From the NCBI GenBank assembly GCA_029945375.1, contig CM057062.1:2309564-2373563 (forward strand): 64,000 nucleotides of DNA, written 5' to 3'. The notes under the pieces are model-generated. The model saw only the letters and a program-made list of their open reading frames with translations. It had not been told where the DNA came from and ran no database searches. Made by a program: the position numbers and the translations under genes. The stretch is from Agaricus subrufescens (lineage: Eukaryota; Basidiomycota; Agaricomycetes; Agaricales; Agaricaceae). This document shows, in pieces, positions 2,088 through 62,753 of the stretch; position 1 is the first letter of the stretch, and every line of letters starts with the position of its first letter.

Positions 2088-5000
2088 ATGGCTTGTTGCT
2101 TCGGGCTGTTTAAACGTAGGCGTAACAGCGACGCGGTCGACCAGGTTGGGCTGGGAGGCTCGTCTAGGTCTTTATCGGGAACTTCAGGTATGCTCCATAT
2201 CCTTGCACGAGCACCCAGTCTGACTTTATGGTCGCTTCAGTCCCCCTCCAGTCTGTCCAGCCGATGCCCACCGCCATCATGGTCCTTGAATCTAGCGCAC
2301 AAAATTGTCCTTTGCCTCCGCCGGACACAGGAGGTGTGTTTCTGCGTATACTTGTATAAGAACACAAAATTCATGACCGCGTCAAACCCTGTTCCACCCA
2401 TCGAACCGACACCGATCGCCACCGTAGCGCATGATGTCAGTGCCGAAAGTCATGTTTCGTCTTCACAGGATGTCCCAGGTGCGTTCCTCCGTGTATATGT
2501 ATGACGAGAGAGCCAGGATTCATGGTTGCCCCAGCCCCTCTCTCACCCTCCCCACCGATGCCTATCACCACCGTGGTCCATGAGTCCGGTGCCGAAAATC
2601 GCGATTCGTCCTCACCGGATATTCAAGGTGCGTCTTTGTGTGTATTTGAATGGTAACACTCGGAGTTCATGGTCGTCTCAGCCCCGCCTGGTTCAGGCAG
2701 CCACTTTGCTGGAGCTCATCACTTTAATATCTACGGTGCCACCTTCACGGAGAGCCACGGAGAGGATAAAGTACATCGTAGTAAGAAATGTCGTTTCATT
2801 CTTCCAGGAAATAAGCTCATTCGCGTTGTCCTCAGTCATGGAATCACTTTTAAAGTATGTTATGGACGGTGCCGCGCCAAACGATGCCTCCCGCAAGTAT
2901 CGCCCCAGGTGTCATCCCGGCACACGCGAAGCACTTCTCAAATGGCTCCTGGCTTGGTTCAAAGATCCCTCCCGCTCCGAATCCCTTTTTCACCTTACTG
3001 GTCCAGCAGGCGTTGGTAAATCCGCCGTCATGCAGACCTACACAGAAAAGGCGGATCATCCCGTCATTTCTGTATTCATTTCACGACCGAACAAATGTAA
3101 CGACCCGAACCGTGTCTTCACTACTATCGGATACCGACTCGCTGATCAGATCGAAGCATACCGCAACTGTATCGTTGACCGCGTTACTACTAGTCCCGAC
3201 ATTCTCAACAAAGACATGGAGACTCAATTCCAAGTCTTCATCGTCGAGCCATTCGTAGTGAGGAATGTTGGAGTTGGCGGGCCGCCCTCGGCTATATTGC
3301 TGGATGGACTTGACGAGATTGAGGGTGTAGACGCACAGCGACAAATTATCCGACTCATTGGCACGTTTATCCACGAACACCCAAATGCACCCCTTGCCTG
3401 GATCATTGCGAGTCGTCCAGAGTTCCATATAACCAACACGTTCAAAGAGACGCCAATCCAAGGGCGGTTCAAGTCATACACCATCTCCATCGACGACCCG
3501 GATGGTCGTCGAGACGTTGCTAACTTCTTGTCTGCCGGCTTCGACGAGATAAAACGCGAGTACGCTGACCTCATCCCCCAGAACTGGCCTGAGGGGACAA
3601 AGGTCGCGAAGCTTGCCGCTGCTTCCTCTGGCCTCTTCATTTTCGCTCAAACTGCGCTTCGGTTCATTCGGGATCTTGATCAATCTGACCCTGTTTCAAG
3701 CCTCGATCTTGTCTTATCCGTCATTGATCGTTCGAAGGGTGTTCCGAGCGAGGAGCAGCCCTTCAGGAATCTCGACAACTTGTACACCGAGATTCTGTCG
3801 AAAATCTCAGCGGCGATGCTACCCACAACAAAACGCTTGCTTGCGCTGGCGTTGGCATTCCGCAGTGACAATTTTCTTGGACTACATCCTAGGACGAAAT
3901 CTCGTACTCTGAAAGGCATGGCTCTGGTTCTCCAGCTGGATCAGGATAAAGTCCGTCTCGCTCTCATCAAGTGTATTTCAACACTCCAGGTACCGCCCTG
4001 GAAGGAAGCACATAAGATGCCGGTGACATTCTTACATGCTTCTTTTGCCGACTACCTGGTGGATGAGCAAAGATCGGGGAAATTTTATATTGATGTTGAT
4101 GGTATTGAGGACGATATGTTACTGGGCTATCTCAACTTGTGGGATAAATATTCTGGGGAGGATTCAGGTACGTCTGAGTATATCATCATCGTGTTTGAGT
4201 AATGCTTATACCAGGTTTCAGCTGCTCGAGGCAAATTTATCAGTGCGGGAATGGCAGGACTCCCGGAAAAGGAAATTGTAGCATTTACCACAGATATCCT
4301 CGCGGAAATGGGCGACAGGCTACTAACCGAGATAGTGAACAGGCATAAGCCTGAGCAAGGGATATCGTCACAGTCGCATCAAAAAGCTATTGAGTGTTTT
4401 GATGCCCTCCTAAATATCAACATGATCAGGCTTTGCAACTTCAATGATAGACTGTGGACTGCTAACTACAGCTATGGCATTGTATATCTATTTGTTAGCA
4501 GAGCATTTGAGGCATGGAAGGTAGTATTGGACTTGGTATCAAACATAGGGATTTCTGACTGCTGTTCTAGGAATTTCGATATGAACTTGGTAAAAACGGG
4601 ATGTTTCAAGAGGTCTACTACAAGGATATAGATGTTGACTTGGATGTTAATGGAAAATATATGGTTAAAGTGGTAAGTAAATGAGGCAGTGAAGTGTTGA
4701 CTGTTATTGACTATTTTGTTTGACAAATGTGATGGATCAGCCTGTAAGTGGATGAGTTGGTGAGGTGTGGTCTGTCATTGACTATTTCTCTTCCACAAAT
4801 CTCATGCATCAGCTTGTAAGTACATCAGTTGGTGAAGTCTTGTCTGTCATTGACTATTTCTCTTCCACAAATCTCATGCATCAGGATGTAAGTACATTAG
4901 TTGGTGAAGTCTGGTCTGTCATTGACTATTTTTCTTCCACAAATCTCATGCATCAGGATGTAAGTACATCAGTTGGTGAAGTCTTGTCTGTCATTGACTA

Positions 5001-6329
5001 TTTCTCTTCCACAAATCCCATGCATCAGGCTGTAAGTACATCAGTTGGTGAAGTCTGGTCTATCATTGACTATTTCTCTTCCACAAATCTCATCCATCAG
5101 CTTGTAAGAACATCAGTTGGTAAAGTCTAGTGTGTCATTGACTATTTCTCTTCCACAAATCTCATGCATCAGGATGTAAGTGCATCAGTTGGTGAAGTGT
5201 GGTCTGTCATTGACTATTTCTCTTCCACAAATCTCATGGATCAGCGTGTAAGTACATGAGTTAGTGAAGTGTGGTCTGTCATTGACTATTTCTCTTCCAC
5301 AAATCTCATGCATCAGGTTGTAAGTACATGAGTTGGTGAAGTGTGGTCTGTCATTGACTATTTCTCTTCTGCAAATCTCATGGATCAGGGTGTAAGTACA
5401 TGAGTTGGTGAAGTGTGGTCTGTCATTGACTATTTCTCTTCCACAAATCTCATGCATCAGGCTGTAGTGCATCGGTTGGTGAAGTGTACATCTGTCATTG
5501 TAAGTCTGGTCTTTGACTATTTCACAAATCTCATGCATCAGGTTGTAAGTACATGAGTTGGTGAAGTGTGGTCTGTCATTGACTATTTCTCTTCCACAAA
5601 TCTCATGCATCAGGGTGTAAGTGCATCAGTTGGTGAAGTGTGGTCTGTCATTGACTATCTCTCTTCCACAACTGTCATGCATCAGCCTGTAAGTACATGA
5701 GTTGGTGAAGTGTGGTCTGTCATTGACTATTTCTCTTCCACAAATCTCATGCATCAGCATGTAAGCACATGAGTTGGTGAAGTCTGGTCTGTTATTGACT
5801 ATTTCTCTTCCACAAATCTCATGCATCAGCCTGTAAGTAGATGAGTTGGTGAAGTCTGGTCTGTCATTGACTATTCCTTTTCCACAAATCTCATGCATCA
5901 GGTTGTAAGTACATGAGCTGGTGAAGTCTGGTCTGTCATTGATTATTTCTCTTCCACCAATCCTTGTGATTAGCTTGTGAGTACATCAGTTCCTGTTCTG
6001 TTATCTGTGCTTCACTATTTCTTTTCTACATATTCAGGGTGTAAGTACATCTGCTGATGAACTGTAGTTTGTTATTCATCATTTTCACTTTGCCTTACAA
6101 GGTTATTGATGAAGAAACAAAATGGTTCTTACAAAATTCACCCAATCTACAAGGTCTTATATGTGGAACAATTCCTGGTGGTCAAGTTGCAATTTTTCGT
6201 GGAGACTGCAAGGGGGACACATACTGTATTGTTCCTTACCACCCGAGAAGTACTGTACATGACATTGAGGAAGTAAGTCTAATATATTTCTTTTTCTCTT
6301 CATCTGCTGATCCTTCGGAACAGGTGTAG
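2088..6329 (+). CDS. NACHT-domain NLR-type STAND NTPase with an unusual exon architecture
   Basis: A predicted signal-transduction NTPase of the fungal NLR class, a group linked to nonself recognition and programmed cell death; its ligand is unknown. Exons as read: 2088-2187, three related 93-nt exons (2241-2333, 2386-2478, 2535-2627), 2682-2780, the large NACHT exon 2836-4167, 4222-4520, 4571-4672, the microexon array, 6102-6272, and a last exon of GTG TAG (6324-6329). The N-terminus is MACCFGLFKRRR, so Cys acylation is possible. Exon 5 carries HFNIYGATFTES, a short motif of a type common before NACHT in basidiomycete NLRs. NACHT motifs are a P-loop (GPAGVGKSA), Walker B (ILLDGLDE) and the sensor-like IIASRPE, then the winged-helix-like FLHASFADYLVDEQRSG segment. 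After the array comes GTIPGGQVAIFRGDCKGD, a region I do not recognise. No WD40, ankyrin or TPR repeats follow. Exon 3 has AA instead of AG at its aligned acceptor. A truncated retroelement starts 145 bp downstream. Confidence 0.8.
2241..2627 (+). repeat. Three tandem copies of a 93-nt phase-1 exon plus intron
   Basis: Exons 2241-2333, 2386-2478 and 2535-2627 are each exactly 93 nt and phase 1-1. They encode related Pro/Ser-rich segments (for example MPITTVVHESGAENRDSSS and PIATVAHDVSAESHVSSS). The introns between them (GTGTGT or GTGCGT starts, with a shared TTCATG block before the acceptor) are also related, so whole exon-intron units of about 145-150 bp were duplicated. The middle copy has AA at 2384-2385 where the others have AG. 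Confidence 0.75.
4673..6101 (+). repeat. Array of 19 intron-like 72-bp units with 3-nt putative microexons
   Basis: Eighteen steps of the array are 72 bp, except one of 81 bp and a last one of 64 bp. A typical unit is a 69-bp sequence starting GTAAGTACAT, with a branch-like TTGAC followed by TATTTCTCTTCC and ending CATGCATCAG, followed by three bases before the next GTAAGT. These 3-nt segments start at 4741, 4813, 4885, 4957, 5029, 5101, 5173, 5245, 5317, 5389, 5461, 5542, 5614, 5686, 5758, 5830, 5902, 5974 and 6038. In order they read as P L D D A L D R V G A V G P H P V L G. Flanking exons end (4672) and begin (6102) in phase 0, so any subset keeps frame. Variant donors are GTAAGA after 5103, GTAGTG after 5463, GTAAGC after 5760 and GTGAGT after 5976; the acceptor before 5974 is TAG. 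The alternative is one 1.43-kb intron made of a minisatellite. Confidence 0.85.
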
Positions 6330-6473: not shown

Positions 6474-8042
6474 TCATCGGTCTGTGTAGACGAAGGAAGC
6501 GTAGCAAAGGGTGCCGTGTAGTCTTTCGACATCGCGAAGTTGACAGCGGCTGGTGGAAAAACAGTCTAGGAAGCGGGAGACACGAGTGAAGTATTTGGAG
6601 CGCTTGTGAGGGGGTAGGGAAACGGTCTTGCCCTCGATGTCCCAGGATAGGCCGATGAAGGTAAATGTGCCATAAAATCCATCGGTGCCCTTGTCTGGGT
6701 GCCAGGGGATCCTGAGTGGGGCAACAAGGGCGAGAGCCCTCGCCTTGTCATACGGGTATGTCACGAGAGGCGGGGTGTCGCTGAAGGATAGCGGAAAACG
6801 AAAGAGGGCCAAGTCGTCCTCGTATTTGACTATGGGCTTGACACCCATGGCGCACCAGATATCCACTGCGGCATTGATGATTTGCCCCGCGTTACCACTG
6901 GCCGAAGAGGCCCCAAAAGGGTGAGCATGGTCTATGTAGAAATTGCCAGGGCGGCCTTGGAAGACCAGCCAGGGTTTATGATCAGGGATGACGGGGCATG
7001 TGCGATGGAACTTTGCAATGTCAACGGTACAGGCTTGTGTGCCTGGTGGCGCAAGCGCGACCTGAATGAAAGCAGTCAGCGTTGTGACTGGAGAAGGATG
7101 AGACCGGATGACGGTCGGAAGGGGAGGCCAAAAATGGCCGGCGCTTATGAAAGCTAAAGGACTCACCAGCTCAGCTACCTGGGCGGCAGTGTCAAAGCGA
7201 GTAGGAAAAAGAGTCGTCCGAATGAATGAGTTGACGGACATGATGGAAGAGCTGGCCTTGGACAAGTGCCGGCATATGCGGATTTTGTCAGGCTCCCCTG
7301 GGGCTTGGGGTTGGGATACGACGACAAGAGGGGAGGATTGGAAGTGGCCCCGCAAGATGGAAAAGATTTGAGAAGAAGAAAATGGTCCGTCAATACGGCC
7401 GGAAGAGACTTCTCCAGAGAGATAGTCGTCAACAAGACCAGGGTGAACAAAGATGGAAGGATGATTATGTAGGATATTAGTGCTCGTGAGAGCGGGCATA
7501 TGGCCTATTGGAAAGCCTTGGCGAAGGGAAAGTACAAGATCGGGGTATGAACTCGAAAGTTTGAACTTGTCAAGAAAGAAATCGAAAGCAGAAGGGTCAT
7601 ATGGAGTGATCGTTTTTTGGAATATCTCGGGTCGAGTGTGGATAGATGGGTTGAAGTGGGGGCGCCGCACGACGGAATCTAGGAGGTGGGGGTAGGAAAG
7701 GCGCGGGGGTTGTTGGAAGGCCACTGCCTCAGGGCTGGGTGTTGGGTGAACGGCGACAAGACCAGCCGAAAGCTGGGTGGGGGCCGCCGCAGAAGGTGCA
7801 GGCATGGGTACGAGCGCAGGTGGGGGGGCATGACTTGTTCGTGAAATTGGCGAGGTTGAACAAGAAACAAGGTTTGGTGCCATCCGGAAGGAGGAGCTTG
7901 CCGTCGGTGACGTGGCAGTATGAGGATTTTCCATCATCAAAGGAGTCGGAAAAATTGCGGGAGATGTGGACGAACACGGTGTGATCTTTGGCGCAGGCGA
8001 GGCAGAAACCTGGGCGTGAGGAGGATGGTTTTGTCGGACCAT
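6474..8042 (-). pseudogene. Reverse transcriptase ORF of a DIRS-like retroelement, 3'-truncated
   Basis: A 522-aa minus-strand ORF. The N-terminal third is Pro/Ser-rich. The RT core follows: KIRICRHLSKASSS with MSVNSFI, CTVDIAKFHRTCPVIPDHKP, FYIDHAHPFGASSASGNAG, the active-site-like KYEDDLALFR (YEDD in place of YxDD), and FIGLSWDIEGKTVSLP. This set fits RTs of tyrosine-recombinase (DIRS-type) retroelements seen in basidiomycetes; that assignment is from memory of the family. The ORF stops shortly after RLHGTLCYASFVY, where RNase H and a recombinase would be expected, and nothing of either is found downstream, so the element is cut at about 6474. Positions 7160 to about 7030 contain GTGAGT...CAG, which could be a frame-keeping intron. 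It overlaps the upstream gag-like ORF by 314 nt in another frame. Confidence 0.65.
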
Positions 8043-9255
8043 TCTTCCTTTTGGATTTGCCGTCTGACCGAAAAAACTGGCTCGATGATGAGGATTGGGG
8101 TGGAGGGGGTTTGGAGGGGTTCAAATCATGGAGGCGTCGACCCAGCGCAGCCTCAGCTTGAGCACTTGACCTTGCAATCAAGAAATGTTGCTCATATTCA
8201 GAGAGGCGGAAAGGTAGGTTGTCCACAAGGATGTTGTGCCGGAGTTCGTGCTCGTGCACCTTCCAAAACGGGAAAAGGGTGCCAGTATCTTTTTTCCGCT
8301 GGAAAAAGGTAAAATGATTGAACCAAGTCTTAGACCAGCCTCCCTCGTTGCCAGGTGCGAGAGGATTCTCAGAAATGTCACGGCTAGACTGAAAGCGGAC
8401 GTAGTTGTTTGTGGACTTGAGATATTTATCGTATGTAAACGAGGGGGATAGATCGTCACCGAAAAACTCGGCCAACTTGGTGATATCCAGAACGACGCGG
8501 CCCTTGGGCTCACCCGATCTAGGGTTGATGCGAGTGAGGGGAATTGTCGCCAAGTTGGTAGCGACATGGCGGATGGCATCCGGGTGAAAGAAGGAGAGGG
8601 GAAGGAAGGCCCGCTCGTCCTCGGTGGTATAATAAATGTCAGGGAAAGTTATGGGCAGATCATCTGTGTCCTTAACCTTCAGGATGTCGCCATCCATACG
8701 ACGCCTGTTTGTGGGAGGAGCGCCACATGGGTCGTTTGATTGCCGTCTCTTTTTGAATGAATTGAGTTTACGTCTTATGCAATCTGGCATGCTGTCTGAA
8801 AAGGATGCTGCGTAATCAGGATCACAAAGATCCTCATAATCTTCAGAAGGAAGTGAGAGGATAGAATCGTCATCGGAGATATCGAAAAGATGAAAATCCC
8901 TGTTGTTGATTCTGCGGAAATCCCGCTCGGCATTTTTTCTCTCTCTCTCCTTGTTCCATTCTAAACGAGCCCTAAGGCCAAGGCCGTTGAAGAATTTGAC
9001 GAGTTCCGGGTTCCTGTGCTTGTCTGCGGCACGCCAGGTGTGGAGTCGAGGTTCCTGACCGTTGTTTCGGTTGGGAGGGCCGGCCTCGTTGTGATTATGA
9101 GTGCCCTGGTTTTGATCGCCGTGATTCTGATTGTTTGACCCTGGGTCCTGTTGGTTACGTTCACCTTGGTCAGGACCTTGTTGTTCTTGGTTGTTACCCG
9201 GGATAGGGGAGGCAGGGTGATTGTCGTTCGGTGCCGAAGAATTAAGATCGGTCAT
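7729..9255 (-). CDS. Gag-like ORF1 of the same retroelement
   Basis: A 508-aa ORF starting at an ATG at 9255. It has an Asn/Gln/Gly-rich low-complexity N-terminus (about residues 1-75), a charged middle, a globular part with GRVVLDITKLAEFF and NPLAPGNEGGWSKTWFNH, and a C-terminal Cys/His region (CLACAKDHTVFVH, then CAR.HACTFCGGPHPAF) that looks like nucleic-acid-binding zinc motifs. It lies directly upstream of and overlaps the RT ORF, the usual gag/pol order. The frame is intact, so this copy decayed by truncation at its far end rather than by point mutation. It is the only clearly uninterrupted long element ORF in the first 23 kb. Confidence 0.65.
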   Translation of the reverse strand: MTDLNSSAPNDNHPASPIPGNNQEQQGPDQGERNQQDPGSNNQNHGDQNQGTHNHNEAGPPNRNNGQEPRLHTWRAADKHRNPELVKFFNGLGLRARLEWNKERERKNAERDFRRINNRDFHLFDISDDDSILSLPSEDYEDLCDPDYAASFSDSMPDCIRRKLNSFKKRRQSNDPCGAPPTNRRRMDGDILKVKDTDDLPITFPDIYYTTEDERAFLPLSFFHPDAIRHVATNLATIPLTRINPRSGEPKGRVVLDITKLAEFFGDDLSPSFTYDKYLKSTNNYVRFQSSRDISENPLAPGNEGGWSKTWFNHFTFFQRKKDTGTLFPFWKVHEHELRHNILVDNLPFRLSEYEQHFLIARSSAQAEAALGRRLHDLNPSKPPPPQSSSSSQFFRSDGKSKRKNGPTKPSSSRPGFCLACAKDHTVFVHISRNFSDSFDDGKSSYCHVTDGKLLLPDGTKPCFLFNLANFTNKSCPPTCARTHACTFCGGPHPAFGWSCRRSPNTQP

Positions 9256-10559
9256 GGTGTGAGAATTTGGCGAGCGAAAACGACTGGACGGGGATCAAAA
9301 CGGCCAGGAAGGAAAAAAGGTAAAGGCGAAAATTTTTTTGATGGCAAACTTAATGGTTCAGTTTGCGAGGGTTATGCAGCACCTTCATCAGCTGTGTCAT
9401 CTTATCCGTTGATGGGATTACATCTCATCTTGGATTCCGTCGTCACGCCAGGAAAAGAGCAGGCTCCTACCCAGCTCGCTCACGTGCGTACGTCCTTATA
9501 GCGGACTCAACCAAACACGAACAAAGTAAGGGTTTGCTAACGCAGTTAGCGGCTGGCACCATATGCGTTTCGGGCAAAAGAGTTTTTTTTTTGGCCAAGC
9601 CACGGGATTTATTTTGTACAGTCATGGTGTTGGTATCCCGCAGTAGAAATACATTATTAACAATTGCAGCGCAGTCGCGGAGACAAGTGAAAAAGTAGAA
9701 AATATGAATGGATCAAATTAAAGGAAGTCTCCCTGTTGTCAGCGATTGGAACAGCAGTTAAAGAACTGGAGGCCCCGAGGATTTAAGTATTCTTGTTCCA
9801 GTGTTATTCATCTCTACTGGCGAGTGTGTCATAGAAGTTGAATTGAATGACGATCCGTTGGTGTGGACCTGTAGAATCAGACATCGTCTTTCGTTGGAGG
9901 AGCGTCACGTCAGAGGTATGAGAGTCCTGTGTTACACACTGTTCTACAAATGTTGAATAACAAAAATGCTGGTATATCATGACACAGGCGTACCTCCACA
10001 ACCCGCCAGAACTGGCCCAAAAAGACAGCCTTTGCGAACCTTGCTAATGCTCTGGCTGCCCACCCTATTTTCGCTTCAACTGCATCGCTACATCGGAGAA
10101 CCTAACTATGCTAGTGATATTGTAGAGGTCCCGCACGCGTATGTCTTCGTCAGAGCATCCGCACGTTCAACTTGAGGCATAGCCAAGCAGACCACTTATG
10201 ACGAATTGCCGGATGACATTTCCCTATGTGGCATCCGATACTGGATCAGCGAAATATGCACTTGGTACTTGAGCCCTCGGGGGAGGGTAGCGCTTCCTTG
10301 TGCTGAGGAAACGGGTCCTGATAAGACGCATATTGTTTGTACAGCGGCAGTAAGAGGAGACCTTGTGAGGAATGGGGTGAGAATAGCCCAGGGAAGGACG
10401 GAGCGCGATGAGATGAGCCAAGAGTGGGTCTTGTATGCGACAAGGAGCGGGGGTCAAACTAAAAGTGCAAGGCGACAAGAGAGCCGGGTGTACCTGCAGG
10501 AGAGACAGACGTGGAGGGCCACGGCAGACGAGTAGACAAAGCGACGTTGATAATGCAAG
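9256..10559. other. Non-coding stretch upstream of the retroelement with degenerate repeats
   Basis: No gene is supported. 9990-10100 resembles 15980-16090 (both carry a phrase reading roughly AFANLANALA / AFVNLTDALD), so both are probably relics of one dispersed sequence. 10200-10480, read on the minus strand, matches part of the internal region of element D (about 49740-49960), including a shared phrase reading LLPLYKQYASYQDPFP / LLPLYKQYTSYQGLFP. The origin of that sequence is unknown. Confidence 0.4.
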
Positions 10560-31589: not shown

Positions 31590-33504
31590 ATGGCTGATCT
31601 CTACCCTCCTGCCCACGCCCGCTCGCAACACTCCTCCCCTTCCCCCCCAGCTTCCAGATCGTATACCCCCAGCTCATCTCCTCTCAGCACTCCACCCCCA
31701 ACAATGCCTCCTCCGAACATAATGATCCCCCCGGCCCCTCCAAATCAAATCCTGACCACCGGCCACCCAAAACAGAGTACCTTTCTCACCAAGCTACCTT
31801 TCTCACCAAGCTACCTTTCTCACCAAGCTATATGCGTACGTGCCGACCGCTCACAGCTCTCCGTCTCGCTCACTCCTTCTCCGAAAGCCTTCTTGAGCTG
31901 CCAGAGAACCACCACATGATTCGCTGGGACCCACCCGGCGAACATATCATCGTCGAGCTTGCTCTCCATGTCCTTCCAAGCATTTATTGTCAATCGAGAT
32001 TCGCGAGCTTCACCCGGCAACTAAATGTCTGCCTTCTTTCATTCTCCATTCTCTTCCTTAATTCACCACCGCCATGTTCTTTTAGATCTATGGTTTCATA
32101 CGCAAAGTTAAGCTGCGCAATGTCGATCCCGCCATCGATGACCCCGACGCGAGTACATGGTGTAAGTGCCCCGATTCGCGTGACCCGTCAACCGATCGTT
32201 GTTGATTATTGTGGCAATACAGCGCCCCCGACTCTCAATCGCCACTCCTCGCCCGAAGTCGTAGCCAACTTCAAGCGCAGAGTCCCGCCCCGTCTCCCAA
32301 AACCCCGCAAGCGCGATATCCACGGCCAGCCACCTGTTCCACTCCCTCGCTCTGCAATCGGCTTGGGCTCCGTCCCTCTCACCGTTCCATCCTCGTCATC
32401 AGTCCCAATGCGAGAGCAAAGCGCGTCATCTGTCTCCCCCTCAAGCCGGCCTACCACTGGATACTCTATGTCGTCTCTACCATATCGGGAGGATCTCCAT
32501 GATTATGCCCGACCAAACTCTAGCCACCACCGACCAAACTCCCCTCAGCTCCCCCAGTCCTCGAAATCCAGTTATCCCACTGGAACCCTTAGTGTTCGTC
32601 GCGATCGCCGGCACAGTCACGCGACGAGCCCTTATCCCAGCCCTTATGACCATCGCGATCAACGACCCTCAAGTTCCCCGCAGCCAGTTGATGACCACCA
32701 ATCGTCAGGGATTCCTCGAGTGCGGAGTAACTGCTTTCAGCCGGCGCATATAGCTTCAACCCTTCGCAAAATGAGTTTTCCTATTCAGCGTCACCGGGCG
32801 CAGTCAACCATACATGGATTCAACGAATGAAACTAATGGCTGCAGTCATCGGAACGTGCGACGCTCAACATCAACGTCTTCTATATCTGCTGTGAATGGT
32901 GAAGTTCAAGGTGAAGGCGACCCTCTGCAAACGCTAGCAGCTTCAAGGCCTCTGAACCACCGCTGGTTCCCTTTGAACCTGACTTTGTAAGTATCCTGCA
33001 TGTCTCCGTTCAAGTTAGGTTAAACATGTTTTCCAGGGCTGGGACACTAATGGAGACACAGCTACTGCTGTAGAATTTGTAAGTATCCATTTATCCCTGT
33101 TACAGGTAAATTAAACATGTTTTTGAGGGCTGGGCAACTAGCGGTGGCATGGCGGCTCCTGCGAAATATGTAAGCATCCCGTACGCCTCCTTTCCAGTTA
33201 AGTTGAACATATTTTGCAGGGCTGGGGCACTAATGGAGACACAGCTGCTGCTGTAGAATTTGTAAGTATCCCGTTTGTCCCTGTTTCAGGTAAATTAAAC
33301 ATGTTTTCAACGTGTTTTTGAGGGTTGGGCAACTAGTGGTAGCATGGCGGCTCCTGCTGTGTCTGGATGGACGGTTCCAGCAAATTCTGAAGAATCGGTA
33401 ACTATCCGGTACTAACAACAGTGGGTTTGTTGCAGCAGAGGCAGCGGAGTCCCAACAGGATCTCTAGTCAATTATCTATAAGCTTTCAGTCTATTATTAG
33501 CTAA
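31590..33504 (+). CDS. HSF-type DNA-binding transcription factor locus, frameshifted as sequenced
   Basis: A predicted nuclear regulator. The start ATG at 31590 begins MADLYPPAHARSQ and a Ser/Pro-rich leader, then the HSF domain: KQSTFLTKL, LELPENHHMIRWDPPGEHII, LPSIYCQSRFASFTRQLN, and after an intron (32027-32085) IYGFIRKVKLRNVDPAIDDP, ASTW, another intron (32162-32222), and TLNRHSSPEVVANFKRRVP. A long Ser/Pro/Arg-rich tail follows. At 31779-31829 a 17-bp sequence stands three times. One copy would join in frame to the next exon as KLYALLELPEN, so the 34 extra bases shift the frame inside the first helix. The 3' part is uncertain: the tail ORF meets TGA at 32828-32830, whereas the mini-exons at 33037-33397 and the final exon (33436-33504, TAA) are in consistent phase 0 with the exon ending at 32986. 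A splice between them or a second small gene is needed. Confidence 0.65.
31779..31829 (+). repeat. 17-bp direct repeat x3 in the HSF domain
   Basis: ACCTTTCTCACCAAGCT occurs three times without mismatch (31779-31795, 31796-31812, 31813-31829), just before the exon-1 donor at 31836. The net excess of 34 bp is not a multiple of three. Confidence 0.95.
33037..33397 (+). repeat. Tandem 42-nt mini-exons separated by about 50-60-bp introns
   Basis: 33037-33078, 33128-33169 and 33220-33261 are each 42 nt and phase 0-0; 33323-33397 is a 75-nt extended copy. They encode GWDTNGDTATAVEF, GWATSGGMAAPAKY, GWGTNGDTAAAVEF and GWATSGSMAAPAV plus a tail, i.e. an A-B-A-B pattern. Each is preceded by an intron starting GTAAGTATCC or GTAAGCATCC with a shared AAACATGTTTT block before the acceptor. 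The preceding exon ends at 32986 (PLVPFEPDF) in the same phase. Confidence 0.75.
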
Positions 33505-37520: not shown

Positions 37521-37743
37521 CTATGCACAGTTATTGCAGGTCAGTAGAATTTTACTGCACACAGTTGTCCCAGGTCAGTAGAATTTTACTATGCACAGTT
37601 ATCCTAAGTCAGTAGAATTATACTTGGGCACATTTATCCCATGTCAGTAGAATTCTACTATGCACAGTTATTGCATGTCAGTAGAATTCTACTGCACACA
37701 GTTGTCCCAGGTCAGTAGAATTCTACTGCACACAGTTATCCCA
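37521..37743. repeat. About 38-bp minisatellite, left part (right part 52013-52215)
   Basis: Roughly six units built on CAGTTATCCCAGGTCAGTAG followed by AATTCTACT. Element A inserted in the array: after its 3' LTR the repeat resumes (GTAGAATTATACT...) with more degenerate units to about 52215. Confidence 0.8.
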
Positions 37744-37748
37744 GCTCA

Positions 37749-42245: not shown

Positions 42246-44840
42246 TCATTTGTTGTCAAATTTTCCTGAAGGGCGGTTTGATTGTACGTTTGTTGCTTCT
42301 AGGAAGACGAGATCTCCTCTGGATAAGGGGTGCCTTTGCCGTTTCAGATTTCTGCGTTCAGACATGGTGGAGTTGTATTCTTCTAATGCTGCTTGTGCTT
42401 TGTTTTGGGTTTTTTCTAATTCTGCGGTGAATTTGTTGGCCAGGGGGTTATCCGAGTTAACGGTTAGGTTTCCTTTCCACGGGTGGATGCCATATGTGAG
42501 GGAAAACGGGGTTTGTTTGGTTGCAGCGTGGGTTTTGTCATTGTATTGGAATTCCGCAGTAGGGAGCCATTTTGCCCAATCGTTTTGTTTGTAATTGACG
42601 AAGTTTTGCAGGTAAGATTCCACTTCTTGGTTAATCCTTTTGGTTTGTCTGTCGGTTTGGGGGTGGTAGGCAGTGGACAGGTTTCTTTCAATTCCTAGGG
42701 CGGAGCATAATTCTTTCATGAATTTGGAGGCAAACTGAGGTCCTCTGTTGCTAATAATGCGCTTGGGTATTCCATGTATGCACCAGATATCTTTCTTGTA
42801 GATTTCGGCTAGTTGCTTTGATGTGAGAGAGGTTTTGGTGGGAATGAGGTGGATCATTTTGGAGAAGTGGTCAACTATTATGAGTATGGCGTCGTGGTCC
42901 TCGGATTTAGGTAGGGGTCCTATCATATCTATAGATATTTCTTGCCATGGTGCTTCGGGGATGGGTAGCGGTTTGAGGGGTGTGTGACCGGGTTGTCGGT
43001 TAATTTTGTTCTTCTGGCATTTGGTGCATCCTTTTACAAATCTTTTGACATCCGTCTTGATCATGGGCCACCAGAAGGTTTGTTTAATAAGTTCGAGCAT
43101 GCGGTAGGATCCTGGGTGTCCAATATCGGGTGGATCGTGGTGGTCCAAAAGTATAGATTCTCGAAGTTTGGGTTCGTCTGGTACATAGATTTTTCCGTTT
43201 TGGTAGGTGATGCTGTTTTCTTCCCAGAATTGGTTGGGTCTTTTGTTTCTTTCCTGTGTGACACGGTGTTCTTTGTGGTTGGAGTTACTGATTAGTTTCA
43301 GGATGTCGGGATCCACGGAGATGGAGAAGTTTCGGTTTATGAGCATGGTGGTTTCCAGTGAGGTGGGGATTTCAGATAGAGTTCATAGGATTATGTGGTC
43401 TTTGAACATCTCAATTTGGGTTTCTTCTTTGGGGGTTTTGTGTCGGAAGAGTCTGGATAGGATGTCGGCCTTTACATTCGTTTTGCCGGGGATGTGTCAG
43501 AGTAAATAGTCATATTCTTGGAGCATGAGGTACCATTGGGCCTGGCGGGCATTCAACTTCTGTGGTTCACGGAAATATTTGAGATTTTCGTGGTCAGTCC
43601 AGATTTCAAATTGATGTTTAGTGTCCAGTAGGTAGTGTCTCCAGTTCTTGATTGCCTTGACTATGGCGAGGAGTTCTTTGTCATAGATTTCATAGTTCTT
43701 TTCTGCTTTGGTGAGGGCTTTAGACATGAAGGCAACTGGATGCCATTTTCCTTCTTGTTCTTGGGATAGGACTGCTCCAATTCCTACATTAGATGCATCG
43801 GTCTCGAGTCTGAATTTTCCTTCATTGTCTGGTAGGGCTAGGATGGGTTTGTTGGTGATGGCGGTTTTGATGGCTTCGAAGGTGTTTTGTTCTTCAGTTG
43901 TCCATTTCCAGGGTTTTGGTGTCTTACCTCCCTTCAAGGCATTGAGCAGTGCAGTGAGAGTGTGAAAGTCCTGAATGAATTGTCAGTAGAAATTTGCAAA
44001 ACCAATAAATCGTTCAATGTCCTTTACGCAGGTCGGGGTTTTCCAGTTTCGAACTGATTCGACTTTTTTGGTTTCCATGCTTGCTTGGCCATCGCCGATG
44101 ACCATTCCGAGCATCGAGATTCGGGTTGTGTTGAACTCACATTTGGTTCGTTTGAAACACAGGTTGTTTTCGTCTGCTATTTTTAGGAAACGCAAGGTTC
44201 GTTCTTCTAATTCAGTCAGGGAGTTGGCAGGGATGGCAAAATCGTCGATGTAGTTGACTAATGAACCATCTTGGATCATTTCTTGGAAGATGGTGGTCAT
44301 CCAGTGAGAGAAAGTGGCTGGTGAGTTGCACATTCCAAAGAACATTACCATCAGTTCGAAGAGTCCGCGATTAGTGAGAATGGTGCCCTTCCATTTGTCT
44401 CCTTCTTTGATTTGTACGTTGTTGTAGCCCCAGATGATGTCGAGCTTGTTGAAGTATTTGGCGTGTTTCAGTTTTCCAATGACTTCGCTGATTAGTGGTA
44501 AGGGGGTTTTGTCCTTGATGGTAACCGTGTTGAGTTTGTGGTAGTCCTGGCACAGCCTTAGTGATCCATCTTTCTTGGGTACGAAGAAGCATGGAGCAGC
44601 GTAGGGGCTCTTTGATGGTCAAATGCATTTAGTGGTGAGATTCTTGTCCACAAATTTATTGAGCTCGATTTCTTCTTTTGGGGTCATCTCGTAGACTTTG
44701 GCATCGATTTCGTTAGGGGCATCCAGTAGTAGGTTGACCTCGTGGTCCCATTGAGTTCGTTCAGGCAGTTTGTCAAAGTTCTTTTTGTTGAAAAGGTGGG
44801 TGTATGGCCGCATGTACACTGGTAGGTCAAGGGGGTTCGT
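42246..44840 (-). pseudogene. Element B RT, RNase H and integrase in broken frames
   Basis: RT remains include MVMFFGMCNSPATFSHWM and the active-site YIDDFAIPANSLTELEE (44351-43983). RNase H has GAVLSQEQEGKWHPVAFMS and TDHENLKYFREPQKLNARQA (43937-43497). Integrase (43346-42246) has the HHCC zinc site (ending GCTKCQKNKINRQPGH), IDMIGPLPKSEDHDAILI, GIPKRIISNRGPQFASKF and YHPQTDRQTKRINQEVESYL. The second catalytic Asp is Asn (ISNRG in place of ISDRG). Frames are interrupted between domains by stops. Confidence 0.85.
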
Positions 44841-52007: not shown

Positions 52008-52012
52008 GCTCA

Positions 52013-52898
52013 GTAGAATTATACTATATACATTTATCCCATGTCAGTAGAATTCTACTGTGCACAGTTATCCCAAGTTGGTAGAATTCAATTTTGTGTA
52101 GTTTTCCAATGTCAGTAAATGCTTACTGCCTATATTTTACTCTGGCTAGGAGAATCCTACTACTCATGGTTTGTTCATATCAGTAGGATTCTATTATACT
52201 TGAGATCCCAAGCTAGTGAAATTCTACTGGTACCAAAGCTAACTAATGTATGATAATAACACACTATATGACTGCTACAATTATATAAGTCACCAAAAAC
52301 GTCCAGCCAGCTGTATGCATCATGTACAGTATACATTGGTCTCCTGCCCTGATTCCTTGGACTACTACCATGCTTTCTGTGTAAACAAATTCTCTGATCA
52401 TCATTCATTTGAAATTCTTTGAGTATACTTATGTGTAACTTATAATACTTTTTTGTTACTTATTTTTCGGGAGAATACTCTTATTGCTTTCACTTATTTT
52501 CTACTTGCAGAATAGCGGTACTTACACTAGAATCAAAAGAGTAGATATATAAGTAGACAGAAATCCTTTTCATGCTTTTACTACTTTTTCATCAAAAAAG
52601 TAACAAAAGGACAAAAAAGTATCTTGACCTTTTGCTGATGACTCAGCAGATCAGATAGTTTTGTTGCAGGTCTACTAGGAGAACAGACTGCAGTGGGAAA
52701 TATATGGTGGTGCTGGTTGTTCCAAAATTGTCTGGTGGTAACTAGGTATAGTCAATAGGTCACAATACCTGGATGGAAAGCTGCTCTTTCAGGAGCAAGA
52801 GGCTCCAGCCTGAGGAATTTTTCTTTCAGCCAGACAAACTGAGAGAAGAAAACCTCAAGCTTACTTTGAATACTAAGCATTTTATTTGCTTGACACAT
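52013..52898. other. Continuation of the minisatellite, then unassigned AT-rich DNA
   Basis: 52013-52215 holds degenerate GTCAGTAGAATTCTACT units interrupted by A. 52216-52898 has no ORF longer than 80 codons and no recognised family. Confidence 0.4.
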
Positions 52899-54250: not shown

Positions 54251-54788
54251 TGTTATAGTGACCCTGGCCCGGTCCTAAGCTGGGGCGATACGTCACTACC
54301 GATAACACAGTTACTGATAGAGCGTATCAAAGGAGCCTTCTCGGTTGAATGGAGATTCAACTTCAAAGGTAATAATACTGAGACGATTATACAAGCAAGA
54401 GAGGGAGCTTAGCAATTAAGACTTATAGGTTCTAGAGCTTTTAGATAAAGGCTTAGTATTAGTCTCCACCTAACCAAGTAGAAACGTTGTTTCTACATGG
54501 TTGAGTTGAGGGGTTTATATACTACAGCGAGTATCTACTTATGTAATACTAATAGGAGTCATATCCAGTCATAACTAGTCATAATAAGTCATATCAAGTC
54601 ATAACTAATCATAATGAGTTGTATCAAGTCATATAAGTCCTCCAAGTCAGTATAAGTCAGAACGACTCTTCCGACTCTTGACTTTGCTGACTAAGAAATA
54701 TTACGTAAGAAAAGAGAAACAATATTCGATACAATTACATCAGCAAAGGTAGGCATATTAGATAAGAAAAGAAATTGAAATCATAACA
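54251..54788 (-). repeat. 3' LTR of element E
   Basis: 538 bp, with a TATA-like TTTATATACTAC and a tract of AGTCATA-type words at about 54550-54640. Confidence 0.92.
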
Positions 54789-56329: not shown

Positions 56330-59300
56330 TGACCGATGTCTGTTGCTGGTAAGTTTCTGATCCTTTTATACTTTTCAAGTGCCTCTTTTGCATTTTCCAA
56401 GTCATTTTCAATTTCCCAAGAATCCTCAGTTGGACCATAGCCTTTCCATCTGACTAGGTATTCTGTAGTCATTCTGAGTCGATTGTTGACTCCACGCTTT
56501 CTTCTGATTCGATGATTAATAATAGCTTCTACTTCATATTCTTCTTCTCCTGACACTAGTATTGGTGGCGGTTCTAGATTATGTTTCCCATAAATGTCAT
56601 TCTCTGTGACTGGTGTTAGCAATGACGTGTGAAATCTGTTATGAATTTTCCATCTGTCTGGGAGTTTTAATTCATAGACTACGGGAGAGATCTTTCTTGT
56701 TATGGTGAAGGGACCTTCTCATCGTTGGTTGAGTTTCTTTGACTCATATGGCATGGGTAGATTTCGATTATCTAGCCATACTTTGTCTCCTTCTTTGAAT
56801 GGATTCCATGGTTTATTTTTGCGGTTACTCATAATGAGTCGTGCGCGTTCATGTGCTTCCAATGCTGCTTGTTGAGTCTGTTCTAAGAATAGTGTCTTTT
56901 CTTCGATTGCTGGTGAGTTTGACTCTTCGTGAGATATGAATGCTTTAGGGTTGTATCCCATGATTAATTCATAGGGTGTGTGTGTTCTTCCTGAATGTGG
57001 TTTAGTGTTGTGTACGAATTCTATCATAGATAAGGCTCTTTTCCAGTTGTTTGGATTTTTATAAGTGTAAACTGCGAGATAGAATTCGATTTCTTGATTG
57101 TACCGTTCTGTCGTTCCATCTGTTTGTGGATGATATGCTGTTGAGAATGCTGGTGCTATATTTAGCTTTTCATAAAGTTTCTGCATAGATTTGGCTGCAA
57201 AACGAGGGTCTCTGTCTGAAATAATCTTTTGGGGGGTGCCGTATTTAGAAAATACTTTTTCGATAAGAATTTCAGCTATATCATCAGCTGTAGCTGTTTT
57301 TCGAGTAGCTGTAAGGATTATCCCTTTCGTAAGTCCATGGTCCACTATGGACAATATTGAATCATATGATCCGTCTGGTGGTAGATCCGTGATGAGATCC
57401 ATGGATATTTGTGTAAAGGGTTTAGTTGATCCTGGTCCCGAAATAGGTTGCATGGGTGGTTTGGTAGGATGTCGGTTAATTTTGTACTGTTGACAAACGG
57501 GGCAACCTTTGACATAGTTTTGGACGTAAGTTCCCATTCCTGGCCAGTATACTTCTTTAGTGAGTTTTCTCAAGGTTTCTGTTATTCCTGGGTGTCCTGA
57601 TGACTCATGGTCATGTGCATTTATTAAGATTTGCTTCTTGATTGTCGGGTTGTCTGGAATAACTATTCTTCCTTGGTATTTGTAGAAATTGTCTTCCTCG
57701 TTTTCAGTATATCTGTCAGATAATGTGACTAGAGATTTGTCATTGTTAATTTGAGTCATTAATTCTTCTGTCAAGAAGTTAATGAAATTTTCGGGAGGTA
57801 AAGCGGTGACGTTTTCGTTGTCTTTCCCTTCTGGGACTAGGTCTGGTCTTCTGCTGAGTGCATCGGCTAATTTATTTTTGGTTCCTGCTAAGTGTTTTAT
57901 GACATAGTTGAATCGAGTCATGTATAATGTCCATCGGGCTTGGCGGCGATTCAATTGTTGTGGTTCTCTCCATCTAGTAAGATTTTCGTGATCTGACCAA
58001 ATGGTGACTGGGTGATTTGATCCTTCTAAGTAGTGTCTCCATTCTTTTACCGCTCTGATGATTGCTAGGAATTCCTGGTCTGAAACGTGATAGTTTCTTT
58101 CAGCTGCGTTTAATGCTTGGCTGAAATAGGCAACTGGATGTTTATCTCCATTGGTGTCCCTTTGGAGTAGTACTGCTCCGGTTGCGTATGCTGATGAATC
58201 ACATTCGATCTCGAATGGTTTATTTTGATCAGCTATTTGGAGTATTGGTCGTTCAAGGAATTGTAATTTCAGGTTTTCAAATGCTGCTTGTGCGTTTGAA
58301 TTCCATTCGAATTTTGTGGTTTTCTTGGTTAATTGGTATAGGGGTTGTGCAATATGAGCATAATTCTTGATGAATTTGCGATAAAAGTTGCAGAATCCTA
58401 AGAATTGTCTGACATTCTTGACTGTTTTTGGAGTAGGCCAGTCAGAAATTCCATTGAGTTTGGTTGATTCCATCTCGATGGAGTCATGAGTAATGACAAC
58501 TCCGAGATATTCTAGTCGATCTTTCTCGAATTCGCATTTTTCTGTCTTTAGATAGAGTTTGTTTCTTTGGAGTATTTTTAGAACTAGTAGAGTCAATTCA
58601 TGTAATCGTTGTTTTGAATCAGCATGAATCAGTATGTCGTCCATGTAGATTATGACTCCTCCTGAGTCAATGAGGTCCTTATATATGGAGTTCATCATGG
58701 ACTGGAATGTTGCTGGTGAATTGGTCATTCCAAAGAACATAACTGTGGGCTCATAGAACCCTTGCAGTGTTCTGAAGGCAGCTTTCCATTCGTCTCCTTG
58801 ACGTATTCTCACATTGTTGTATCCAAGCCTGACGTCTAGCTTGGTAAAATATTTTGATCCTTTTAATTTGTTCATTATGCTCGAAATGTTAGGAATTGGG
58901 TAAGCATTCTTGATAGTGTTTTGATTTAGATATCGGTAATCTTGGCATGGGCATAAGTCTCCACTCTTCTTTCCTACAAAGAAGAATGATGATGCCATTG
59001 GCGATTCTGAAGGGCGGATATATCCCTTTCGTAGGTTTTCTTCTATAAACTTGCCCAATTCTCTTTCTTCTTTAGGTGTTAGAGCATATATCAGCATGTG
59101 TTTTGGTTTAAATTCCGGTATAAGATCAATTTTGTGATCCCATTCTCGTTGTGGGGGTAATCTTTCTGATTTTTGTTTGTCAAATACTTTGAGAAATCTA
59201 TGATATCTTCTAGGTATGACTTTGAGTGGGTCAGATTCCTTTTTAAAATTAGCACTCTTTGCTAATTGTTGTGATGCATTTGTTTTGTAGTTGATCTCTT

Positions 59301-59770
59301 GGTAGATTCTATTTATAGAATTGATTTTGAGAGCATGTTTCAATGGTATTGGAATATGGTTTTCATCTCTCCACAATAATGATGGTGCCTGCCAATCAAT
59401 ATCTGGGTTGAATTTCTTTAACCACATAATTCCCAAAAATAGTTTATGTTTGCCAAGAGAAACTATTCTTGGTTTGATTATCATTGTCTTGTTATTGATT
59501 GTGATTTTCATTTTAACGTAATGAGAGCATTTTCCCGCAGAGTTTCGTGATCCGTCTGCATTCAATGTATATCGCACTTCTTTTAGTGGATATTTTTGGA
59601 GATGATAGTTGTCAACTAATTGATGATCGACAAAGTTTCCGCTAGCTCCTGAATCTAGTAGAGCTTCAATGTCGTGTCGATCGTTTTTGGTGTGTAGTTT
59701 CGTTGGGACTAAAAGTGTTCATCCTGATGATTTCTGAAGATCAATTTGATCGATTTGATCTTCAGAGGTA
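56326..59770 (-). pseudogene. Element E pol: protease, RT, RNase H, integrase, chromodomain
   Basis: Protease ALLDSGASGNFVDHQ (about 59660). A 952-codon ORF (59577-56719) holds RT with FFVGKKSGDLCPCQDYRYLN and YMDDILIHADS, RNase H (FEIECDSSAYATGAVLLQ, TIWSDHENLTRWREPQQLNR), and integrase with the HHCC site (GHPGIT ... GCPVCQQYKINRH), MDLITDLPPDGSYDSIL, KIISDRDPRFAAK and TDGTTERYNQEIEFYL, so all three catalytic acids are present. After one TGA (56719-56721) come EGPFTITRKISPVVYELKLP and the chromodomain TEYLVRWKGYGPTEDSWEIE. A second TGA is at 59719-59721. Both are single-base changes from CGA or TGG. Confidence 0.92.
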
Positions 59771-62215: not shown

Positions 62216-62753
62216 TGTTATAGTGACCCCGGCCCGGTCCTAAGCTGGGGCGATACGTCACTACCGATAACACAGTTACTGATAGAGCGTATCAAAGGAG
62301 CCTTCTCGGTTGAATGGAGATTCAACTTCAAAGGTAATAATACTGAGACGATTATACAAGCAAGAGAGGGAGCTTAGCAATTAAGACTTATAGGTTCTAG
62401 AGCTTTTAGATAAAGGCTTAGTATTAGTCTCCACCTAACCAAGTAGAAACGTTGTTTCTACATGGTTGAGTTGAGGGGTTTATATACTACAGCGAGTATC
62501 TACTTATGTAATACTAATAGGAGTCATATCCAGTCATAACTAGTCATAATAAGTCATATCAAGTCATAACTAATCATAATGAGTTGTATCAAGTCATATA
62601 AGTCCTCCAAGTCAGTATAAGTCAGAACGACTCTTCCGACTCTTGACTTTGCTGACTAAGAAATATTACGTAAGAAAAGAGAAACAATATTCGATACAAT
62701 TACATCAGCAAAGGTAGGCATATTAGATAAGAAAAGAAATTGAAATCATAACA
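62216..62753 (-). repeat. 5' LTR of element E
   Basis: 538 bp, nearly identical to the 3' LTR. The untranslated leader 61955-62215 lies between it and gag. Confidence 0.92.

Follow-up and report, generated by a model that had tools for sequence, protein, structure and literature searches.

Tandem single-codon exons predicted in a family of NACHT-type NLR genes of Agaricus subrufescens

In the agaric Agaricus subrufescens, a gene for a NACHT-type NOD-like receptor (NLR) is interrupted by a tandem array that is probably spliced codon by codon, with most of its codons included in the message (probability roughly 0.72). The array occupies positions 4673 to 6101 of the window, by which we mean the whole stretch of 64,000 nucleotides that was analyzed (contig CM057062.1 of assembly GCA_029945375.1, positions 2,309,564 to 2,373,563 of the forward strand); all positions below are those of the window. 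The array would be a run of ordinary fungal introns of 61 to 78 nucleotides (nt) in which neighboring introns are separated by one codon. Their removal one at a time by the spliceosome (intron definition) would join the codons between the exons that end at 4672 and begin at 6102. The main transcript would carry most or all of the 19 codons, and the receptor would have 19 residues of its own close to the C-terminus. Target sensing by fungal NLRs is attributed to that end, and these residues may have a sensing role. Since skipping of a 3-nt exon always keeps the frame, combinatorial isoforms produced by codon skipping are also possible.

Tandem Repeats Finder delimits the array with a period of 72, 17.8 copies, and a score of 1874. 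It contains 19 AG-NNN-GT junctions, mostly at a spacing of 72 base pairs (bp), and the gene around it matches the Pfam family NPHP3_N, in agreement with a preliminary description of 72-bp units with 19 single-codon junctions inside an NLR gene. The single codons on the + strand are located at 4741, 4813, 4885, 4957, 5029, 5101, 5173, 5245, 5317, and 5389 (codons 1 to 10) and at 5461, 5542, 5614, 5686, 5758, 5830, 5902, 5974, and 6038 (codons 11 to 19). They read, in order, CCT CTT GAT GAT GCT CTT GAT CGT GTT GGT GCT GTT GGT CCT CAT CCT GTT CTT GGT, and spell the peptide PLDDALDRVGAVGPHPVLG. That the triplets are free of stops and that the bordering exons (4571 to 4672 and 6102 to 6272) end and begin in phase 0 had been stated before and is correct. 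The introns had been given as 69 bp throughout; the 20 introns are actually 61 to 78 nt long, mostly 69, with a first intron of 68 nt (4673 to 4740) and two final introns of 61 nt each (5977 to 6037 and 6041 to 6101). The splice motifs attributed to nearly all units are mostly regular, but donors deviate at 5104 (GTAAGA), 5464, 5761 (GTAAGC), and 5977 (GTGAGT), as do two acceptors, a TAG at 5971 to 5973 and the last one, which is AAG.

The array is part of a family. Used as a query against the 44.65 Mb genome, in which the window lies within contig C6, it gave 33 matches that merge by eye into approximately 24 array loci including the window, which form a single family of NACHT-type NLR genes. 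The units measure 72 bp on C6, C8, and C9, approximately 71 bp on C1, C4, C13, C25, and C27, and 73 bp in locus L031. A strict two-junction pattern has 156 + 137 matches genome-wide versus 5 + 7 for the reversed pattern, indicating that the pattern exceeds chance, and 288 of the 293 strict matches were counted inside family array loci. The exon preceding the array (4571 to 4672) has a tblastn match (E 0.01) in 18 of the 24 array loci. The exon following it (6102 to 6272), likely near the C-terminus, is matched in 21 of 24, and the paralogue matches start at its residue 1 or 2; tblastn did not find it in L017, L025, and L030, of which L025 and L030 reach the contig end. Among the loci compared, the ratio of nonsynonymous to synonymous substitution (dN/dS) is 0.40 to 0.59 for the flanking exons and for an exon in the middle of the gene, which identifies all three as constrained coding sequence. 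Some members of the family are near-duplicates. L009 is 98.4% identical to the window over 5.9 kb, and L012 (C6:2396200) and L013 (C6:1839700) differ by a single mismatch over 9.7 kb (99.99% identity), representing either a very recent segmental duplication or an assembly duplicate. Two further loci, L033 and L034, have one regular 3-nt junction each, and their matches to the downstream exon contain a stop; no convincing family exon was found in L036.

The splice sites of individual units appear to be under constraint, unlike those of a simple intronic minisatellite. In a profile search (profile built from motif-selected units, motif not required of matches, threshold E 0.001; near-duplicates L009, L013, L025, L029, and L030 omitted), the spacer between acceptor and donor is 3 nt in 341 of 344 complete junctions, and AG, three nucleotides, and GT are all intact in 336. 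Within the most diverged arrays (L026, L028, and L031; 54 rows), the AG never deviates (0%) and the GTAAGT does so at 1.9%, compared with 19% at other positions and 62%, 57%, and 15% at codon positions 1, 2, and 3. Of 278 units, 274 contain a YTNAY motif 15 to 45 nt from the intron 3' end; the A of this motif is 30 to 31 nt away in 230. An AG intervenes between this motif and the acceptor in 14 of the 274, versus 101.5 in mononucleotide shuffles. These 278 units are a cleaned and de-duplicated set, from which L009, L013, L023, L025, L029, and L030 were excluded, and 9 of 369 units were discarded because they were out of register or contained a second junction. Introns measure 60 to 75 nt in the 369 family units, a range bounded by the spacing filter. 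These results bear on the possibility that positions 4673 to 6101 are a single 1.43-kb intron containing a minisatellite, with the splice motifs as passengers and the triplet as an unconstrained spacer. This is unlikely, since the splice sites are nearly fixed in diverged arrays where other positions deviate by 12% to 19% and AG is depleted between the branch motif and the acceptor. Further, an unconstrained spacer would not retain a length of 3 nt almost everywhere, nor would it vary at positions 1 and 2 yet much less at position 3, and the protein would be 16 to 26 residues shorter than its array-free relatives. An RNA hairpin within the unit (positions 8 to 13 with 58 to 63) was also considered and dropped: it formed in two of three single units, folding was no better than in shuffles (z of 0.92, -0.66, and -0.87 for single units and 0.75 and 0.21 for two junction-spanning pieces), and these column pairs are absent from the top mutual-information pairs.

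The codons are far more variable than the introns that separate them. For the 72-bp type (145 units), entropy at codon positions 1, 2, and 3 is 1.67, 1.99, and 0.63 bits, versus an intron mean of 0.25; for the 71-bp type (96 units, one of them a misregistered L028 unit), it is 1.64, 1.79, and 0.45 versus 0.56. Even where two units have the same 69-nt intron, as in 153 pairs, the codon usually differs (135 pairs), with differences at 67%, 74%, and 18% of pairs for positions 1, 2, and 3. The 283 de-duplicated triplets, two of them misregistered, comprise 28 sense codons for all 20 amino acids. No stop is present in the 278 cleaned units; the sole TGA among the 283 triplets is a misregister, and the TGA triplets in L028 and L029 are misregistered matches inside introns. 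There are 13 NAA codons and no NAG (Fisher p 0.009, the codons being clustered in few loci), as would be expected if an additional AG next to the acceptor does harm. The earlier proposal of frame-neutral single codons with highly varied residues, set between introns of ordinary fungal size, is supported by this sequence evidence. T is the last base of 317 of 369 array codons, consistent with a single NNT unit having been copied in tandem. Insertion of introns between the codons of an ordinary exon is not favored, since it predicts ordinary third bases, such as those of the array-free locus L035 (TTG AGT GTT CAG CAC GAT TGG).

Recursive splice sites consist of an acceptor closely followed by a donor, which the junctions resemble, and a 3-nt exon is too short for exon definition. 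Both points are compatible with recursive splicing, in which the introns would be removed singly and the codons would be stepping stones, nearly all absent from the mature mRNA. We consider this improbable, as it accounts neither for codon positions that are close to saturation next to a conserved third base, nor for the use of all 20 amino acids, nor for a match in protein length at six of seven loci. Within the introns of the 72-bp type (n = 145), positions 11 (G 67, C 67, T 9, A 2) and 64 (C 66, G 74) have a near-even C/G dimorphism, and the two are partly associated with each other. C at position 11 gives CAG, and G, present in 67 of 145 units, gives an in-frame TGA (unit positions 10 to 12) if the unit is retained. 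Such stops would suit a regulatory switch in which retained units cause premature termination and the completeness of splicing sets the amount of receptor. However, a switch requires neither variable codons nor exact 3-nt spacing, and 71-bp units shift the frame regardless, making this explanation very unlikely. The same 67 TGA triplets count against translation of the array as a 24-residue repeat with one hypervariable residue, for which one could cite that 72 is a multiple of 3 and that a + strand frame is open across approximately five units (4756 to 5130). Paralogue units of 71, 70, 67, and other lengths, and introns without a codon-phase pattern (phase entropies 0.28, 0.30, and 0.26), leave this reading next to no probability; as a general explanation it is refuted by the 71-bp arrays and the lack of codon phase in the intron. 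That units in many arrays are 71 bp long, which is not a multiple of 3, counts in favor of codon splicing.

Inclusion of most codons has its strongest indirect support in a comparison with array-free relatives. Locus L035 on contig C7 has related exons and, in our reading, a 21-nt exon of seven codons between two introns at the place of the array. Its intron 2 resembles an array unit (z of 5.0 and 3.4 versus its own shuffles), whereas z is -1.4 to 0.1 for its intron 1 and for two introns from elsewhere in the window gene. The distance between two anchor motifs is 42 residues in L035 and 46 to 52 residues in ten Agaricus bisporus proteins, which are those among 120 listed that contain both anchors and some of which are probably alleles. 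A chain test, with limits of 55 to 95 nt per intron, was applied to 15 loci with both flanks, which do not include L013, a copy of L012. Seven of these have an unbroken chain: the window, its near-duplicate L009, L010, L011, L012, L026, and L027. The exons alone provide 26 residues in all seven, and exons plus codons provide 45 in the window, 46 in L009, 44 in L010, 51 in L011, 49 in L012, and 48 in L026, whose array has 22 codons. The agreement of these six loci with the relatives suggests that in most unbroken loci the array replaces a contiguous segment of similar length. It may have originated by tandem amplification of one intron together with one NNT codon. Recombination would then gain, lose, and shuffle units while the codons diverge, resulting in paralogues with different peptides.

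The 69-nt introns of different loci differ by 8.2% and those of the same locus by 6.1%, compared with a proportion of synonymous differences (pS) of approximately 27% in flanking exons of the same type, suggesting that the introns are homogenized or strongly constrained. Tandem repeats do homogenize, and strong turnover or constraint of this kind would also be seen if the array were one intronic minisatellite. Five pairs of recent copies, matched by position, have changes at 12 of 231 codon sites (5.2%), some of these 'codon' sites being chance motifs inside L026 and L028 introns, and at 96 of 5127 intron sites (1.9%). This 2.8-fold excess is far below the near-saturation between units with identical introns, and a strongly hypermutable codon is not favored. 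The pair L028/L029 has 38 intron changes and zero codon changes, and a repeated block of five units in L012 has retained all five codons, with introns that have diverged by 1 to 5 bases. Either the introns are homogenized without dragging the codons along, or selection keeps the codons different.

Several points weigh against splicing of the array codon by codon with most codons retained. The support is genomic, and inclusion and skipping are deduced from it rather than read from transcripts. Since the units of an array share descent, conservation counts are not independent; the spacer is not 3 nt long in 3 of the 344 junctions, and the AG is broken in a further 5. T as the final exon base before a donor is not the usual U1-pairing base. 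In the window, the donor following codon 11 (5461 to 5463) is damaged (GTAGTG), leaving an irregular interval of 78 nt (5464 to 5541) to the next acceptor. Use of a spare GTAAGT at 5500 instead would place codon 11 within a 39-nt in-frame exon; the introns of L009 are regular at this place. The absence of stops is weak evidence, with approximately 2.3 expected in 283 triplets whose position 3 is mostly T. Some copies look damaged, for example through a stop in the upstream exon of L018, and the length comparison depends on an uncertain alignment. An unbroken chain was not obtained in 8 of the 15 tested loci, including L014 and L016, and the unbroken chain of L027 has only 4 codons and a total of 30 residues, contrary to a fixed segment length; both of these observations are what a single minisatellite-bearing intron would accommodate.

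The host gene, on the + strand, has the sequence characteristics of a fungal NLR with a NACHT-type NTPase. Its large exon (2838 to 4167; the ATG at 2838 is the assumed start) has an intact P-loop, GPAGVGKS, at 3000, and matches to NPHP3_N (5.3e-12, above the Pfam cut-off) and NACHT (3.3e-4, below the cut-off). An intron ending in TTTCAG (4168 to 4221) separates it from the second exon (4222 to 4520), a middle region of approximately 100 amino acids that is kept in paralogues and to which no Pfam family matched. A further intron (4521 to 4570), ending in TAG, leads to the exon that precedes the array. At least 830 proteins match residues 1 to 430 at E 0.001 or better. Named relatives among the 120 matches listed belong to Agaricus, Macrolepiota, Leucoagaricus, and Leucocoprinus, and the closest of them is an Agaricus bisporus protein with 57% identity over residues 1 to 430; matches from metagenome contigs are closer still, at 72 to 77% identity. 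The C-terminal part (residues 440 to 637) had 0 matches at E 0.001 among 344 candidates when used as a protein query, and the C-terminal ends of Agaricus bisporus NLRs are related to the window exon at 6102 to 6272. Ankyrin repeats were not found in four segments of the window gene (E up to 0.1) or in seven segments from six paralogues (E up to 1), all scanned as separate segments rather than as whole spliced proteins.

The preliminary description knew of no comparable system, and one has in fact been reported. According to passages of four papers (PMC4986451, PMC10197012, PMC3689799, and PMC9815663), NACHT-ANK (nank) genes of the truffle Tuber melanosporum contain codon-sized, alternatively spliced exons, a finding credited to Iotti et al. 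2012; one of these passages describes 'dozens of 3 bp mini-exons' (PMC9815663). The abstract of another paper says that functional microexons had not previously been described in filamentous fungi, which contrasts with the Tuber reports (PMC11121469). A second fungal system of tandem single-codon exons was not found in the literature searched, a scope outside which most subscription journals fall. The Agaricus arrays resemble the nank genes, as the passages describe them, in belonging to an expanded fungal NACHT NLR family with dozens of 3-bp exons; in Tuber these are said to diversify the recognition region at the C-terminus. As far as genomic sequence can tell, the present genes likewise have tens of such exons in their C-terminal part, and the ankyrin repeats of nank proteins were not detected in the segments scanned. 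The host here is an agaric, the units are near-identical and 71 to 72 bp long, and the hypervariable codons are mostly NNT; alternative splicing is reported for Tuber in these passages and would be possible in Agaricus.

Other systems share some of these properties. Schistosome micro-exon genes also have many very short exons able to vary the protein, but there the exons are 3 to 81 bp long, the introns are long and can reach 5 kbp, and the products are secreted (PMC10526429), unlike the window array with 3-nt exons throughout, introns of 61 to 78 nt, and a location within an NLR. NLRs of Podospora anserina are described as having near-alike repeats with hypervariable positions in the sensor region that undergo concerted evolution and shuffling; there whole WD, TPR, or ANK repeats are coding, whereas here the conserved part is intronic and only the variable codon is predicted to be exonic (PMC4986451). 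P450 genes of the basidiomycete Phanerochaete chrysosporium have tiny exons (2 to 10 amino acids) and small introns (45 to 55 bp), but these microexons are spread over many genes and have at least 2 codons, and the passages make no mention of tandem single-codon arrays (PMC1184071). The Agaricus array family looks like a second, differently built case beside that of the truffle. It is conceivable, although less likely than not, that the receptor is split, with single hypervariable codons and with homogenized introns that serve as a scaffold for recombination, that many variants are generated by including the 3-nt exons in different combinations, and that this arrangement originated independently of the truffle system, in another phylum.

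Elsewhere in the window, tandem units of approximately 92 bp at 32984 to 33395 resemble a 42-nt exon plus a 50-nt intron. They are located downstream of an open reading frame (ORF) with an HSF-type DNA-binding domain (31598 to 32830) and may be a further array in this genome that combines introns with short exons. Long retroelement-like ORFs are present on the minus strand at 6474 to 9294, 42246 to 43382, and 56719 to 59718. The latter two resemble Ty3/gypsy pol by motifs, and no Pfam family matched the first, in which two ORFs overlap. At 37526 to 37748 and at 52010 to 52089, a 34-bp unit is repeated in tandem, and both arrays have the palindrome AGTAGAATTCTACT. A 30-bp consensus is shared by two tandem arrays approximately 8 kb apart (54557 to 54633 and 62522 to 62598), which flank the retroelement-like ORFs and are possibly located in long terminal repeats. 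Across the genome, DUF6533, a family typical of Agaricomycetes, has matches at 145 places, compared with none in 14 control genomes, in keeping with an agaric. Its matches on C1 (1.7 to 2.0 Mb) are mirrored on C2 (0.25 to 0.54 Mb), and these regions may be uncollapsed haplotypes.

If the codons are included, part of the receptor would be built residue by residue through splicing, and the evolving unit would be a lone codon. The family would then be the agaric counterpart to the truffle case, suggesting that fungi reached this design more than once. With 20 successive introns and 3-nt exons between them, it would also make the limits of exon length in splicing testable, and it supplies approximately 24 natural variants together with an array-free relative. 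Standard gene callers are expected to miss single-codon arrays.

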